A DNA stretch of 64,000 bases from Pleurocapsa sp. FMAR1 (GTDB lineage Bacteria; Cyanobacteriota; Cyanobacteriia; Cyanobacteriales; Xenococcaceae): the NCBI RefSeq assembly GCF_963665995.1, contig NZ_OY762512.1, positions 3,720,001-3,784,000 of the forward strand, written 5' to 3'. Shown one piece after another: positions 1 to 45,549 of the stretch (within the stretch, counting starts at the first letter, position 1; the number at the start of each line of letters is the position of its first letter). The notes beneath the pieces are model-generated. The model saw only the letters and a list, made by a program, of their open reading frames with translations. It was not told the origin of the DNA and ran no database searches. Both the position numbers and the translations under genes were made by a program.

Positions 1-155
1 AGAAAAACCTGAGAATAGAGATTCAGTAAAGAGTTGAGGGATTGACACAAAGCAAGGGGAGTCAGCACTCTGAGATTAGATACCACTCATAATTTCAGAA
101 TACTGTGAATCAAAACTCCCGTCTCTACAATGCCTTGAATCAATGGATGAGTCAA

Positions 156-1140
156 TAGAAGTTTGAAGACAGAAGTATGAAGGCGCGAAGTTTCAAGTTT
201 GTTCGAGGGCTTGTACCTCATACGAAGGAAGAAGTTTGAAGTTTGAAGGAAGAAGGAATTCGGAATTCGGGAAGGATTTTTTGTAGCTCATACCTCACAC
301 CTCATACTTCGCGCCTTCATACCTCATACACAGGGCTATCGCCCAGATCGTCCGTCCTTCGGACGACTTCGATGCTTCGCATCGTGTAGGGCGAAGCCCT
401 GGTACCTCTACCAAACTAAGAGCGATCGTGAACGACGGGGCTTGCAACTATAGTGGAACAAAGGACTTGTCCGCATGTAGGAGGAAGTAGCTGTTTACGA
501 AGTTTGAAGGAAGAAGTTTGAAGGAAGAAGGAAGAAAGATTTTTTGTACCTCATACGAAGGAAGAAGTAGCTGTTTTACTTCATACTTCATACCTCATAC
601 TTCATACTTCATGCAGCTGTTTTACTTCATACACGGACTCTCTGTCCGTCGCCGTTCCCAAGGAGACGTCGGAACGCAGAGAGCGTTCACCTCACACTTC
701 GCGCCACAGGGCTATCGCCCAGATCGTCCGTCCTTCGGACGACTTCGATGCTTCGCATCGTGTAGGGCGAAGCCCTGGTACCTCTACCAAACTAAGAGCG
801 ATCGTGAACGACGGGGCTTGCAACTATAGTGGAACAAAGGACTTGTCCGCATGTAGGAGGAAGTAGCTGTTTACGAAGTTTGAAGGAAGAAGTTTGAAGG
901 AAGAAGGAAGAAAGATTTTTTGTACCTCATACGAAGGAAGAAGTAGCTGTTTTACTTCATACTTCATACCTCATACTTCATACTTCATGCAGCTGTTTTA
1001 CTTCATACACGGACTCTCTGTCCGTCGCCGTTCCCAAGGAGACGAGCGTTCACCTCACACTTCGCGCCACAGGGCTATCGCCCAGATCGTCCGTCCTTCG
1101 GACGACTTCGATGCTTCGCATCGTGTAGGGCGAAGCCCTG
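156..1140 (+). repeat. GTCAA-bounded heptamer/palindrome element (insert 1a)
   Basis: The insert lies between GTCAA at 151-155 and GTCAA at 1141-1145. It begins with GAAGTTT/GAAGTAT-type heptamers and ends in GGGCGAAGCCCTG. Inside are three copies of a 71-bp branched palindrome (331-401, 707-777, 1070-1140), alternating purine-rich heptamers (GAAGTTT, GAAGGAA) and their complements (CTTCATA, CTCATAC), and a second palindromic module around 640-690. The block 401-776 is repeated as 777-1139 with one 13-nt deletion; copies 2 and 3 lack this extra unit. Distance between the GTCAA starts is 990 bp. Confidence 0.85.
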
Positions 1141-1700
1141 GTCAAGCTACTGACTGGTTACATTTATGTCATCTTCAAACTTGTATTTGGATGATAATTG
1201 CTTTAATACACACGGGCAATGTCAACCTGACAAAATGGTCGATGTACATCCCTGGTCGAGGGAAGTTGGCTGGGGGTAGACAGAGACGTATTCAGCGTTG
1301 GCTAAACAATCCTCGAATCAATGTCCATCGAATCAGAAAGTCCTTGGTCAAAGCAGCACTTGATGATTGGTCAGAATCAAAAATATTTTTGGCATTAGAC
1401 ACTTCACTGTTCTGGGATGAGTATTGCCTTGTGCGGCTTTGGGTTATTCATCGAGGGAGAGCTTTACCGTTGGTGTGGAGAGTGATGAACCATGAAAGTG
1501 CTAGTATTTCAGTTACCGATTATCGAGAGATGATTAAGCAGGCACAAGTTAGGCTACGAGAATCAGTTAAGGTAATTTTACTCGCGGAGCGAGGATTTAT
1601 ACATACCGAATTGATGACCATGCTGACAACTCAACTAGGATGGCATTATCGTCTCCGAATTAAGAGTAATACCTGGATTTGGCGTGGAAGTTGGTGTCAA

Positions 1701-2322
1701 CAGAAGTTTGAAGACAGAAGTATGAAGGCGCGAAGTTTCAAGTTTGTTCGAGGGCTTGTACCTCATACGAAGGAAGAAGTTTGAAGTTTGAAGGAAGAAG
1801 GAATTCGGAATTCGGGAAGGATTTTTTGTAGCTCATACCTCACACCTCATACTTCGCGCCTTCATACCTCATACACAGGGCTATCGCCCAGATCGTCCGT
1901 CCTTCGGACGACTTCGATGCTTCGCATCGTGTAGGGCGAAGCCCTGGTACCTCTACCAAACTAAGAGCGATCGTGAACGACGGGGCTTGCAACTATAGTG
2001 GAACAAAGGACTTGTCCGCATGTAGGAGGAAGTAGCTGTTTACGAAGTTTGAAGGAAGAAGTTTGAAGGAAGAAGGAAGAAAGATTTTTTGTACCTCATA
2101 CGAAGGAAGAAGTAGCTGTTTTACTTCATACTTCATACCTCATACTTCATACTTCATGCAGCTGTTTTACTTCATACACGGACTCTCTGTCCGTCGCCGT
2201 TCCCAAGGAGACGTCGGAACGCAGAGAGCGTTCACCTCACACTTCGCGCCACAGGGCTATCGCCCAGATCGTCCGTCCTTCGGACGACTTCGATGCTTCG
2301 CATCGTGTAGGGCGAAGCCCTG
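1701..2322 (+). repeat. GTCAA-bounded heptamer/palindrome element (insert 1b)
   Basis: Same architecture as insert 1a, between GTCAA at 1696-1700 and at 2323-2327 (627 bp between the two starts). Order of modules: heptamer arms, 71-bp branched palindrome (1876-1946), a module starting TACCTCTACCAAAC, the motif GGAGGAAGTAGCTG, a second set of heptamer arms, a second palindromic module (ACGGACTCTCTGTCCGT hairpin), and a final 71-bp palindrome (2252-2322). It interrupts the transposase between a TGT-CAA codon pair and CCT. Confidence 0.85.
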
Positions 2323-2993
2323 GTCAACCTAAAAACTTTCACTTTCATTTAGCAGAGGCAATTTGCTTACACAACGTACAGATTCACAAAGGTGAATTTT
2401 CTGGCAAAGTTCATGTGATTCTTGGTCGCAACAACGTTAACGGCGAACTATGGGCAATTGTCAGTAATGAAAAAACTACTCTACAAACCTTTGCTGAATA
2501 TGGATTACGTTTTGATATCGAAGCGAATTTTTTAGATGACCAATCTGGTGGTTGGAATGTTCAACGCTCGATGATTCGAGATGTATGCGCTTTGTCCCGT
2601 TTGTGGTTTATCTTATCTGTGGCTACTCTCTACGTTAGTGCCCAAGGTGTTGAGGTAGTTCGTATTGGCAAACGAAGATGGGTTGATACTCATTGGTTTC
2701 GTGGTAATAGCTATTTTAGGATTGGTTGGGATTGGGTCAAAGCTGCACTCATTAATGGTTGGAATTTACTTCATTGCGTGACTTTCTCTAGTAATCAAGA
2801 TCCCTCACCTGCAATGGCATCACGATCGCAATATCAAAAACGAGCAGATCAGTTGGAGTTCAAAGTTTTAACTTATTCCTACAATATTTCTTGAAAGTTT
2901 TGTCAGTCAATCAGGTATAGATGAGTTGTTACTACTACATTCCCATTATCTGTTTTGCCGATTTCTCCTATATACTGACGACCTACTCCTGCC

Positions 2994-21379: not shown

Positions 21380-21829
21380 ATGACGATCGATCACAACGCT
21401 CCATCATCCAAATTTCAGGTTCCCACACTCAAAGAACAAGAAAAAAAGGCTGCTTTTCGTAAATGGCAGGCAGTGTTTTACACCTTGCGTCAAAAGAAGG
21501 CAGAAGACGCTGCGCTACAAGGGCAGATGGCAGAAGGTAACTTGTTTGGAAGAGGCTTGTACCTCTACCAAACCCTTTTCGTCGTAAACGACGAGGCTTG
21601 TATCCTGACGGAAGAAGGAGGAAGTAGCTGCTTTTCCTTCTGCCATCTGCCATCTGCCTTCTGCCTTCAAGGGCGAAGCCCTGGTCAAAAGAAGGCAGAA
21701 GAGTTAAAGTTATTTGATGCTCAACACCAAGTTTATGCTGCAAGGATGAACGAGCGACAGGTAGAACTCCCAGAACTTCCAACCGCCAAACCAGTTTACG
21801 AAGAAGAAGAAGTCGAAGTTGACTTTTAA
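21380..21829 (+). CDS. Small protein with in-frame GTCAA element
   Basis: 149 aa, of which 65 come from an inserted repeat element. Without it the protein would be 84 aa: an N-terminal basic helix (LKEQEKKAAFRKWQAVFYTLRQKKAEELKLFDAQHQVY) and an acidic tail ending EEEEVEVDF. The insert adds VVNDEACILTEEGG and a Ser/Cys-rich stretch with no stop. No known family. It may act with the neighbouring Gp157-like gene as a phage- or plasmid-type recombination accessory, but that is guesswork. Confidence 0.55.
   Translation: MTIDHNAPSSKFQVPTLKEQEKKAAFRKWQAVFYTLRQKKAEDAALQGQMAEGNLFGRGLYLYQTLFVVNDEACILTEEGGSSCFSFCHLPSAFCLQGRSPGQKKAEELKLFDAQHQVYAARMNERQVELPELPTAKPVYEEEEVEVDF
21494..21683 (+). repeat. GTCAA-bounded heptamer element, GAAGGCA type (190 bp)
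   Basis: It lies between GTCAA at 21489-21493 and 21684-21688. The left arm has AGAAGGCAGAAG and GGGCAGATGGCAGAAGG; the right arm has CTTCTGCCATCTGCC and CTTCTGCCTTC, the exact complement type. Shared modules with the large elements: TACCTCTACCAAAC, TTCGTCGTxAACGACGxGGCTTG, GGAGGAAGTAGCTG and the terminal AGGGCGAAGCCCTG. The distance between the two GTCAA starts is 195 bp (65 codons). Confidence 0.85.
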
Positions 21830-28273: not shown

Positions 28274-28895
28274 TAGAAGTTTGAAGACAGAAGTATGAAG
28301 GCGCGAAGTTTCAAGTTTGTTCGAGGGCTTGTACCTCATACGAAGTTTGAAGTTTGAAGGCGCGAAGTTTGAAGGAATTCGGAATTCGGGAAGGATTTTT
28401 TGTAGCTCATACCTCACACCTCATACTTCGCGCCTTCATACCTCATACACAGGGCTATCGCCCAGATCGTCCGTCCTTCGGACGACTTCGATGCTTCGCA
28501 TCGTGTAGGGCGAAGCCCTGGTACCTCTACCAAACCTCTTTCGTCGTGAACGACGGGGCTTGCAACTATAGTGGAACAAAGGACTTGTCCGCATGTAGGA
28601 GGAAGTAGCTGTTTACGAAGTTTGAAGGAAGAAGTTTGAAGGAAGAAGGAAGAAAGATTTTTTGTACCTCATACGAAGGAAGAAGTAGCTGTTTTACTTC
28701 ATACTTCATACCTCATACTTCATACTTCATGTAGCTGTTTTACTTCATACACGGACTCTCTGTCCGTCGCCGTTCCCGAGGAGACGTCGGAACGCAGAGA
28801 GCGTTCACCTCACACTTCGCGCCACAGGGCTATCGCCCAGATCGTCCGTCCTTCGGACGACTTCGATGCTTCGCATCGTGTAGGGCGAAGCCCTG
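28274..28895 (+). repeat. GTCAA-bounded heptamer/palindrome element (insert 2a)
   Basis: Between GTCAA at 28269-28273 and 28896-28900 (627 bp between starts). Two 71-bp palindromes (28450-28520, 28825-28895). It differs from insert 1a in the module after the first palindrome (AAACCTCTTTCGTCGTGAACGACGG instead of a GCGATCG-containing version) and lacks the tandem duplication. Confidence 0.85.
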
Positions 28896-29455: not shown

Positions 29456-30077
29456 CAGAAGTTTGAAGACAGAAGTATGAAGGCGCGAAGTTTCAAGTTT
29501 GTTCGAGGGCTTGTACCTCATACGAAGGAAGAAGTTTGAAGTTTGAAGGAAGAAGGAATTCGGAATTCGGGAAGGATTTTTTGTAGCTCATACCTCACAC
29601 CTCATACTTCGCGCCTTCATACCTCATACACAGGGCTATCGCCCAGATCGTCCGTCCTTCGGACGACTTCGATGCTTCGCATCGTGTAGGGCGAAGCCCT
29701 GGTACCTCTACCAAACTAAGAGCGATCGTGAACGACGGGGCTTGCAACTATAGTGGAACAAAGGACTTGTCCGCATGTAGGAGGAAGTAGCTGTTTACGA
29801 AGTTTGAAGGAAGAAGTTTGAAGGAAGAAGGAAGAAAGATTTTTTGTACCTCATACGAAGGAAGAAGTAGCTGTTTTACTTCATACTTCATACCTCATAC
29901 TTCATACTTCATGCAGCTGTTTTACTTCATACACGGACTCTCTGTCCGTCGCCGTTCCCAAGGAGACGTCGGAACGCAGAGAGCGTTCACCTCACACTTC
30001 GCGCCACAGGGCTATCGCCCAGATCGTCCGTCCTTCGGACGACTTCGATGCTTCGCATCGTGTAGGGCGAAGCCCTG
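29456..30077 (+). repeat. GTCAA-bounded heptamer/palindrome element (insert 2b)
   Basis: Between GTCAA at 29451-29455 and 30078-30082; the same 627-bp spacing as insert 1b. Palindromes at 29631-29701 and 30007-30077. Confidence 0.85.
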
Positions 30078-38418: not shown

Positions 38419-39040
38419 CAGGGCTTCGCCCTACACGATGCGAAGCATCGAAGTCGTCCGAAGGACGGACGATCTGGGCGATAGCCCTGTGGCGCGAAGT
38501 GTGAGGTGAACGCTCTCTGCGTTCCGACGTCTCCTTGGGAACGGCGACGGACAGAGAGTCCGTGTATGAAGTAAAACAGCTGCATGAAGTATGAAGTATG
38601 AGGTATGAAGTATGAAGTAAAACAGCTACTTCTTCCTTCGTATGAGGTACAAAAAATCTTTCTTCCTTCTTCCTTCAAACTTCTTCCTTCAAACTTCGTA
38701 AACAGCTACTTCCTCCTACATGCGGACAAGTCCTTTGTTCCACTATAGTTGCAAGCCCCGTCGTTCACGATCGCTCTTAGTTTGGTAGAGGTACCAGGGC
38801 TTCGCCCTACACGATGCGAAGCATCGAAGTCGTCCGAAGGACGGACGATCTGGGCGATAGCCCTGTGTATGAGGTATGAAGGCGCGAAGTATGAGGTGTG
38901 AGGTATGAGCTACAAAAAATCCTTCCCGAATTCCGAATTCCTTCTTCCTTCAAACTTCAAACTTCTTCCTTCGTATGAGGTACAAGCCCTCGAACAAACT
39001 TGAAACTTCGCGCCTTCATACTTCTGTCTTCAAACTTCTG
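38419..39040 (-). repeat. GTCAA-bounded heptamer/palindrome element (insert 3b)
   Basis: Between the TTGAC complements at 38414-38418 and 39041-39045 (627 bp). Palindromes at 38419-38489 and 38795-38865. Confidence 0.85.
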
Positions 39041-39600: not shown

Positions 39601-40223
39601 CAGGGCTTCGCCCTACACGATGCGAAGCATCGAAGTCGTCCGAAGGACGGACGATCTGGGCGATAGCCCTGTGGCGCGAAGTGTGAGGTGAACGCTCTCT
39701 GCGTTCCGACGTCTCCTTGGGAACGGCGACGGACAGAGAGTCCGTGTATGAAGTAAAACAGCTGCATGAAGTATGAAGTATGAGGTATGAAGTATGAAGT
39801 AAAACAGCTACTTCTTCCTTCGTATGAGGTACAAAAAATCTTTCTTCCTTCTTCCTTCAAACTTCTTCCTTCAAACTTCGTAAACAGCTACTTCCTCCTA
39901 CATGCGGACAAGTCCTTTGTTCCACTATAGTTGCAAGCCCCGTCGTTCACGATCGCTCTTAGTTTGGTAGAGGTACCAGGGCTTCGCCCTACACGATGCG
40001 AAGCATCGAAGTCGTCCGAAGGACGGACGATCTGGGCGATAGCCCTGTGTATGAGGTATGAAGGCGCGAAGTATGAGGTGTGAGGTATGAGCTACAAAAA
40101 ATCCTTCCCGAATTCCGAATTCCTTCAAACTTCGCGCCTTCAAACTTCTTCCTTCGTATGAGGTACAAGCCCTCGAACAAACTTGAAACTTCGCGCCTTC
40201 ATACTTCTGTCTTCAAACTTCTA
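39601..40223 (-). repeat. GTCAA-bounded heptamer/palindrome element (insert 3a)
   Basis: Between 39596-39600 and 40224-40228 (628 bp, the only one in the window that is not a multiple of three). The extra base is in the module after the palindrome, which has the AACTAAGAGCGATCG version. Palindromes at 39601-39671 and 39977-40047. Confidence 0.85.
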
Positions 40224-45216: not shown

Positions 45217-45549
45217 ATGGTTCAACGAGGGTCTACAGTCAGAATTCTTCGTCCAGAATCCTATTGGTATAATGAAGTTGGCTCAGTAGCATCGGTAGAT
45301 ACAAGCGGTATTCGTTACCCTGTAGTCGTACGCTTTGAGAAAGTTAACTATGCTGGCGTGAATACCAATAACTTTGGAGAAGCAGAAGTCAAGGAAGTAT
45401 CTCCTCCTCCCAAAAAAGCTGCTAAAAAAGCACCTGCTGGGAAGAAAGCACCCGCTGAGAAGAAAATACCCCCTGAGGAGAAAGCACCCTCTGCTAAACA
45501 AGATCCAGCACCAGCTAAAGAAAAAGAACCTGAGTCAGGTGCAGGCTAA
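45217..45549 (+). CDS. psaE: Photosystem I subunit IV (PsaE) with extended tail
   Basis: 110 aa. The SH3-like PsaE core is clear: [28 protein letters not shown], then [25 protein letters not shown]. It binds ferredoxin at the stromal side of photosystem I. After residue 63 there is a ~45-residue Lys/Ala/Pro tail ([21 protein letters not shown] ...), longer than in many cyanobacteria. AGGAG is 11 bp before the ATG. Terminator follows at 45659-45697. Confidence 0.97.

Follow-up and report, generated by a model that had tools for sequence, protein, structure and literature searches.

The window, that is, the whole stretch of 64,000 nucleotides analysed here (G000:C1:3720001-3784000), belongs to a genome that consists of a single contig of 5.43 Mb. 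It holds three copies of a DDE-transposase element, each interrupted by two composite inserts, and one single mini-element, with the following features:

156..1140, + strand: composite insert 1 in a DDE-transposase gene; GTCAA at 151-155 and 1141-1145; empty site in four relatives
331-401, 707-777 and 1070-1140, + strand: palindromes inside composite insert 1
1701..2322, + strand: composite insert 2 in the same DDE-transposase gene; GTCAA at 1696-1700 and 2323-2327; empty site in relatives
1876-1946 and 2252-2322, + strand: palindromes inside composite insert 2
1986-1989, + strand: hairpin-2 guide CTTG of composite insert 2
21494..21683, + strand: single mini-element; GTCAA at 21489-21493 and 21684-21688
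21494..21540, + strand: its left heptamer arm, limits approximate
21544..21573, + strand: hairpin 1 of its core (R1 match G000:C1:3741544-3741610), with the loop guide CTTG at 21556-21559
21579..21594, + strand: hairpin 2 of its core, followed by GG and the guide CTTG at 21597-21600; this module is the tnpA-side end of IS200/IS605 elements
21607..21669, + strand: its right heptamer arm, complementary to the left arm, limits approximate
21670..21682, + strand: its terminal hairpin, AGGGCGAAGCCCT
28274..28895, + strand: insert 1 in the second copy of the transposase element
29456..30077, + strand: insert 2 in the second copy
38419..39040, - strand: insert 2 in the third copy
39601..40223, - strand: insert 1 in the third copy

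The inserts at 156-1140, 1701-2322 and 21494-21683 all begin with AGAAG-type heptamers, end in GGGCGAAGCCCTG and carry GTCAA on both sides, exactly as the sequence-only reading of this DNA had described them. Its further statement that deletion of the insert reopens a frame at each site needs a qualification for 21489, where the frame is open with the insert present too. At that position (window 21380-21829), as well as at locus L333, the mini-element is read through as a net addition of 195 nt free of stop codons, and thus adds 65 residues in frame to the host ORF. The direct repeat at 21489 is not the proposed one of 5 bp but one of 19 bp (21489-21507 and 21684-21702), as the host sequence following GTCAA matches the left end of the element itself; relatives diverge there. 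The window also contains 3.7 copies of an 18-bp tandem repeat, AAAGCACCCGCTGAGAAG, at 45427-45493.

A 71-bp palindrome is indeed present 13 times in the window and is predicted to fold so that a long closing stem encloses two inner hairpins (z = -7.9 relative to 200 shuffles). These copies are not independent observations, since all of them lie in a DDE-transposase element of which the window has three nearly identical copies (5+4+4). Judged by insert 2, the twice-interrupted element is present at 15 places genome-wide (including window 151-2894, 28.2-30.6k and 38.4-40.3k); no uninterrupted copy was found in this genome among the matches listed, all of which are split at the insert, and relative G006 has an uninterrupted version of 390 aa (PF01609, DDE_Tnp_1, E = 3.5e-6). 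Genome-wide, AGGGCGAAGCCCTGG occurs 58 times and GGGCGAAGCCCTGGTCAA at 31 places. Among the latter, GTCAA-flanked right ends, insert 2 accounts for 15 and insert 1 for 12, including two variants from one rearranged copy; three more belong to other complete copies (21489, L005 and L025), and one (L011) stands alone. The 15 and 12 ends of the two inserts therefore indicate that the interrupted transposase element has multiplied together with its passengers. Many copies without flanking GTCAA had been named as an observation that would speak against the proposed family, and 27 of the 58 hairpin ends do lack it, yet by their coordinates these are located inside composite inserts, some hundreds of bases before a GGGCGAAGCCCTGGTCAA end of the same transposase element.

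Since the palindrome is missing from the insert at 21489, from L025 and from the copies L031, L033 and L034 of relatives, it does not define the family. The idea that the palindrome itself is the mobile unit was rejected, as among the delimited copies only the inserts of the transposase element and L005 possess it; it was probably added to the right end in one lineage and multiplied with the transposase element as its carrier. A GTDB scan with GGGCGAAGCCCTGGTCAA returned 70 stretches, and the element is present in three of them, all from Pleurocapsa (L053 and L111 with both ends, L074 with the right end only, at a contig edge). The remaining stretches show no heptamer start at the upstream GTCAA and look like chance matches. 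A separate repeat of ~100-140 bp, starting with AATACTGTTCGGTTAGTC and ending with CGGTATT, was observed beside L025 (G000:C1:4260.8k) and at L113, L115, L120, L122, L125, L129, L133 and L136.

For the comparison with relatives, 25 sites were prepared, 11 searched, L025 among them with a shortened right flank, and eight aligned, with L005, L025 and L162 left out of the alignment. Empty sites carrying a single GTCAA, as the sequence-only reading had anticipated, do exist, and four of the eight aligned sites are empty in relatives, namely both sites in the transposase gene, L033 and L145. The site of insert 1 reads as a single GTCAA in G006, G004, G016 and G012. That of insert 2 reads GTCAA in G004 and in one copy of G006, and GTCAG in another G006 copy and in G005. 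At L033, GTCAA is found in G011, and at L145 the relatives read GTCAA (G007), GTCAT (G019), a gapped TGTCAT (G012) and GCCA (G004). Elsewhere, the site of L031 reads ATTAA in a relative, L034 aligned poorly, five relatives have no GTCA at the site of L143, and two homologs diverge at 21489.

In the relatives G006, G012 and G005, further copies (L031, L033 and L034) are flanked by GTCAA at either end. Altogether, 31 insertions from the window genome and its relatives were delimited by eye. Their common site is GTCA, the motif for which they had been selected at both ends, and the fifth base is variable, being A on the left in 26 and on the right in 21 of the 31. Together with the single GTCA(A) of the empty sites, these insertions support the proposed mobile family and a strict choice of target; the part of the proposal that has to be amended is the target itself, which is GTCA and not GTCAA. 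A 5-base target duplication, the other option that had been offered, is not supported, given that in 12 of the 31 sites the left and right fifth bases are not the same and that in two copies, L340 and L341, the left site is GTCA and the right one ATAA. These two copies carry two different guides, and their unlike end sites speak against a duplication of the target. The elements show a fixed short target without duplication, apart from the longer repeats at L173 (26 bp) and 21489 (19 bp). At L173 (G005:C85:6300-8400) the mini-element lies inside a gene, and the direct repeat on either side, which ends in GTCAA, is 26 bp long in place of the 4-5 bp seen elsewhere.

The same observations bear on the idea that the inserts are miniature elements of an ordinary DDE transposase that prefers GTCAA and duplicates 5 bp. 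The GTCAA on both sides of the first sites read and the presence of DDE elements would suit it. The mini-elements contain no transposase gene, and single elements measure 93-317 bp. However, neither terminal inverted repeats nor an equal target duplication were found; the two ends are unlike each other, and with the differing fifth base and the unlike ends of L340 and L341 we regard this origin as very improbable.

The core shared by the mini-elements consists of two hairpins. A model of it (R1), built from nine copies chosen by the analyst, matches in 15 of the 27 genomes of the taxonomic family (E <= 0.001) and, with stricter filters, in 25 of the 291 genomes of the order, the own genome included (E <= 1e-5). 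Of 75 aligned hits, 67 were retained once six weak ones and two duplicates at contig edges had been discarded, and control windows located 530 nt further on existed for 55 and 53 of these. GGTCA follows within 242 nt downstream in 37 of the 48 hits with a CTTG guide (seven in control windows), and GTCAA precedes within 230 nt upstream in 34 of 43 hits (eight in control windows), whereas GATAA is found 17 times in the same CTTG group and 17 times in its controls. A four-letter guide inside the hairpin appears to spell out the GTCA site, in the manner known from the single-strand transposons of the IS200/IS605 group.

The second half of this core has a counterpart elsewhere in these bacteria, where hairpin 2, with GGCTTGTATCC and further on GGTCA behind it, forms the end of IS200/IS605 elements on the side of tnpA. 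At L286 and L296 the stop codon of tnpA lies within the hairpin GCCGTC..GACGG, which is the second hairpin of the mini-elements; GGCTTGTATCCC comes next, and GGTCA lies 14-15 nt past the guide. This near-terminal palindrome, of the kind expected for IS605-related elements, is common to L286, L296, L313, L322 and L320, while other tnpA elements (L288, L294, L321, L327 and others) end in GGTTTTNNACCC..GATAA. The loci L313 and L322 are two autonomous copies of 1.75 kb in G010 that are 99.9% identical and have the GGTCA end. Since their other, right end is TCAA with GAAT, like that of IS608, the mini-elements are not simple deletions of them. Another segment of the element, GGACTTGTCCGCATGTAG, is matched at G010:C7:5349280-5349301 and 5397628-5397649, where it adjoins two Y1 tnpA genes and may mark the end of a further IS200-like element.

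A relationship to REP/REPIN repeats, which are moved by a TnpA-REP (RAYT) protein, might be suspected, as the mini-elements are likewise small, dispersed and hairpin-bearing, use a guide tetranucleotide and coexist with Y1 genes. Compared with the REPs covered by excerpts of PMC6006769, they are longer, possess arms, and have CAAG or AAAA as guide and not GT[AG]G. Their end module further belongs to another class of tnpA neighbours, namely short IS200-like genes of 134-138 aa (PF01797 in two). By guides and neighbours alike, a REP-type origin appears highly doubtful.

In IS608, as given in excerpts of PMC5934647, the guide GL AAAG pairs with TTAC and GR GAAT with TCAA, from which we read the rule that a site T-x-A-y corresponds to a guide x'-A-A-y'. 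Leaving out the seven Y1 loci of the own genome, 49 tnpA loci were inspected, 35 with a guide motif and 14 without a recognisable one. The predicted site is located 11-19 nt further on in 9/9 CTTG, 10/11 TTTT and 3/3 CTTT loci (22 of 23, counts that are not independent since one element is represented by several of the loci), as well as in 1/2 TTTC loci and the one ACTG locus. To this extent the IS608 rule, as excerpted, carries over, but not to the CTTC loci, which show the predicted site in 0/9 cases and GCTAA instead; a guide shifted by one base would fit these, an idea that arose post hoc. The tnpA group with GCTAA ends, a GCTTC motif and the need for this shift comprises L277, L278, L280, L284, L300-L302, L317, L324, L325 and L332.

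The mini-elements agree with the rule by group, although many single copies miss it. Where the guides are TTTT/TTTT or TCTT, the site is ATAA (in L197, L213 and L216 on both sides), and the mixed copies L340 and L341, with the guides CTTG and TTTT, have the sites that these guides predict. L334, with the sites TTAA and GTGA, fits if its first guide is read by eye as ATTT. Against the rule, copies with CTTC at hairpin 2 have GGTGA downstream in only two of six cases and GGTCA in four. Misses on one side concern L186, L387, L393, L394, L190, L206, L390, L338, L189, L218, L034, L388 and L392, those on both sides L395, L386 and L185.

Cyanobacterial genomes contain heptamer arrays (STRRs) and small dispersed repeats, reportedly a subject of Elhai in 2008. 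The link to these repeats that had been drawn is partly right: many heptamers are the arms of an element with defined ends, and what had been overlooked is that the core between them is an IS200/IS605-type transposon end. For the element at 21489, the predicted fold has z = -7.5. In 16 of 18 mini-elements the left arm pairs more strongly with the right arm of the same copy than with the median foreign one (its own partner ranking first in four and among the top three in ten), with L206 and L209 as exceptions. As the short copies L337, L338, L344, L389 and L394 have no second arm and keep the short distance from guide to site, the arm looks like an expansion of the guide-to-site linker. The generalisation that all heptamer arrays are arms of elements was rejected, since L376, L378 and L379, from the listed part of 139 places, carry heptamers without a core hit. 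L376 and L379 (G000:C1:3088400-3091600) are small heptamer foldbacks in or near genes without core hairpins.

Such foldbacks, along with the long direct repeats at L173 and 21489, could be taken to mean that the heptamer repeats spread by template switching or via an RNA intermediate, as has reportedly been proposed for small dispersed repeats in Nostoc, with GTCA as a by-product. This would leave the end shared with tnpA elements, the agreement of guides and sites and the clean empty sites unexplained, and we consider it improbable, if slightly less so than a DDE- or REP-type origin.

From our point of view, the inserts are best explained as non-autonomous, PATE-like derivatives of IS200/IS605 elements that are moved in trans by a Y1 transposase, a reading to which we assign a probability of roughly 0.83. 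It accounts for the absence of genes and terminal inverted repeats, the subterminal hairpins, the fixed border tetranucleotide, the precise empty sites and the end module shared with tnpA; the long repeats at L173 and 21489 are left unexplained by it. The mini-elements would thus probably borrow the enzyme of IS200/IS605 transposons, although their transposition, including the action of a Y1 TnpA in trans, is inferred. On the strand presumed to be used by TnpA, the order is TGAC, terminal hairpin, arm, guide, hairpin 2, hairpin 1 with its loop guide, arm and TGAC. A Y1 (HUH) TnpA supplied in trans would act on this strand, opposite to the printed one, and cut after TGAC (GTCA on the + strand), the site being chosen by pairing with the guide CAAG beside the hairpin, while the heptamer arms, complementary within one copy, would fold the two ends together. 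A single-strand circle would then form and be reinserted 3' of another TGAC. Because the other end of the element is TGAC as well, insertion would resemble a short duplication and excision would leave one copy.

The closest parallel is provided by the palindrome-associated transposable elements (PATEs) of Haloquadratum walsbyi and a PATE-like element in Halanaerobium. According to excerpts of PMC3119063 and PMC7290912, PATEs share with the mini-elements the lack of terminal inverted repeats and of target duplication, palindromes near the ends, a size too short for a transposase, a targeting sequence of 4-5 bp, a relationship to IS605-type ends and heterogeneity of the ends. Unlike PATEs as portrayed there, the mini-elements have complementary heptamer arms, a second guide hairpin, copies with mixed guides, and carriage inside a DDE element. 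With IS608 and the IS200/IS605 group, so far as covered by the excerpts of PMC5934647, they have in common a tetranucleotide site, a guide 5' of the hairpin foot and the retention of the site at the left flank. They differ from IS608 as excerpted by lacking tnpA and tnpB, by a far end of TGAC with a CAAG guide instead of TCAA with GAAT, and by a second guide that, in contrast to the right end of IS608, is placed within the loop of a hairpin. No description of this mini-element was found in the open-licence literature, a scope that excludes most subscription journals.

Y1 transposase genes are present in all 27 genomes of the taxonomic family, with seven in the own genome. No L286-like TnpA was detected among the latter at E <= 1e-30, nor was the end module of the mini-elements within 130 nt downstream of any of the seven genes. 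The own copies may therefore be dormant or be served by another of the seven Y1 proteins. Mini-elements and L286-like TnpA do not tightly co-occur in general, as G004 has the TnpA without a core hit and G007, G017, G019 and G023 have core hits without such a TnpA.

Overall, what is unusual in these mini-elements are the complementary heptamer arms and the mixed guides. One could tentatively go further and picture a modular, target-programmable mini-transposon with two guide hairpins, each setting the site of its own end and exchanged between copies (GTCA/GTCA, ATAA/ATAA, GTCA/ATAA), and with fast-changing complementary arms as an end clamp that replaces a short fixed linker; from our point of view, this is possible rather than probable. 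If it is true, part of the long-known heptamer repeats of cyanobacteria would be the arms of such transposons. The natural series of guide/site pairs offers material for testing the pairing rule of IS608, and the gene-free elements of 100-300 bp are cleanly removable or, at two sites, translated in frame with the host ORF. The present analysis offers a likely mechanism for one class of heptamer-rich repeats in cyanobacteria.
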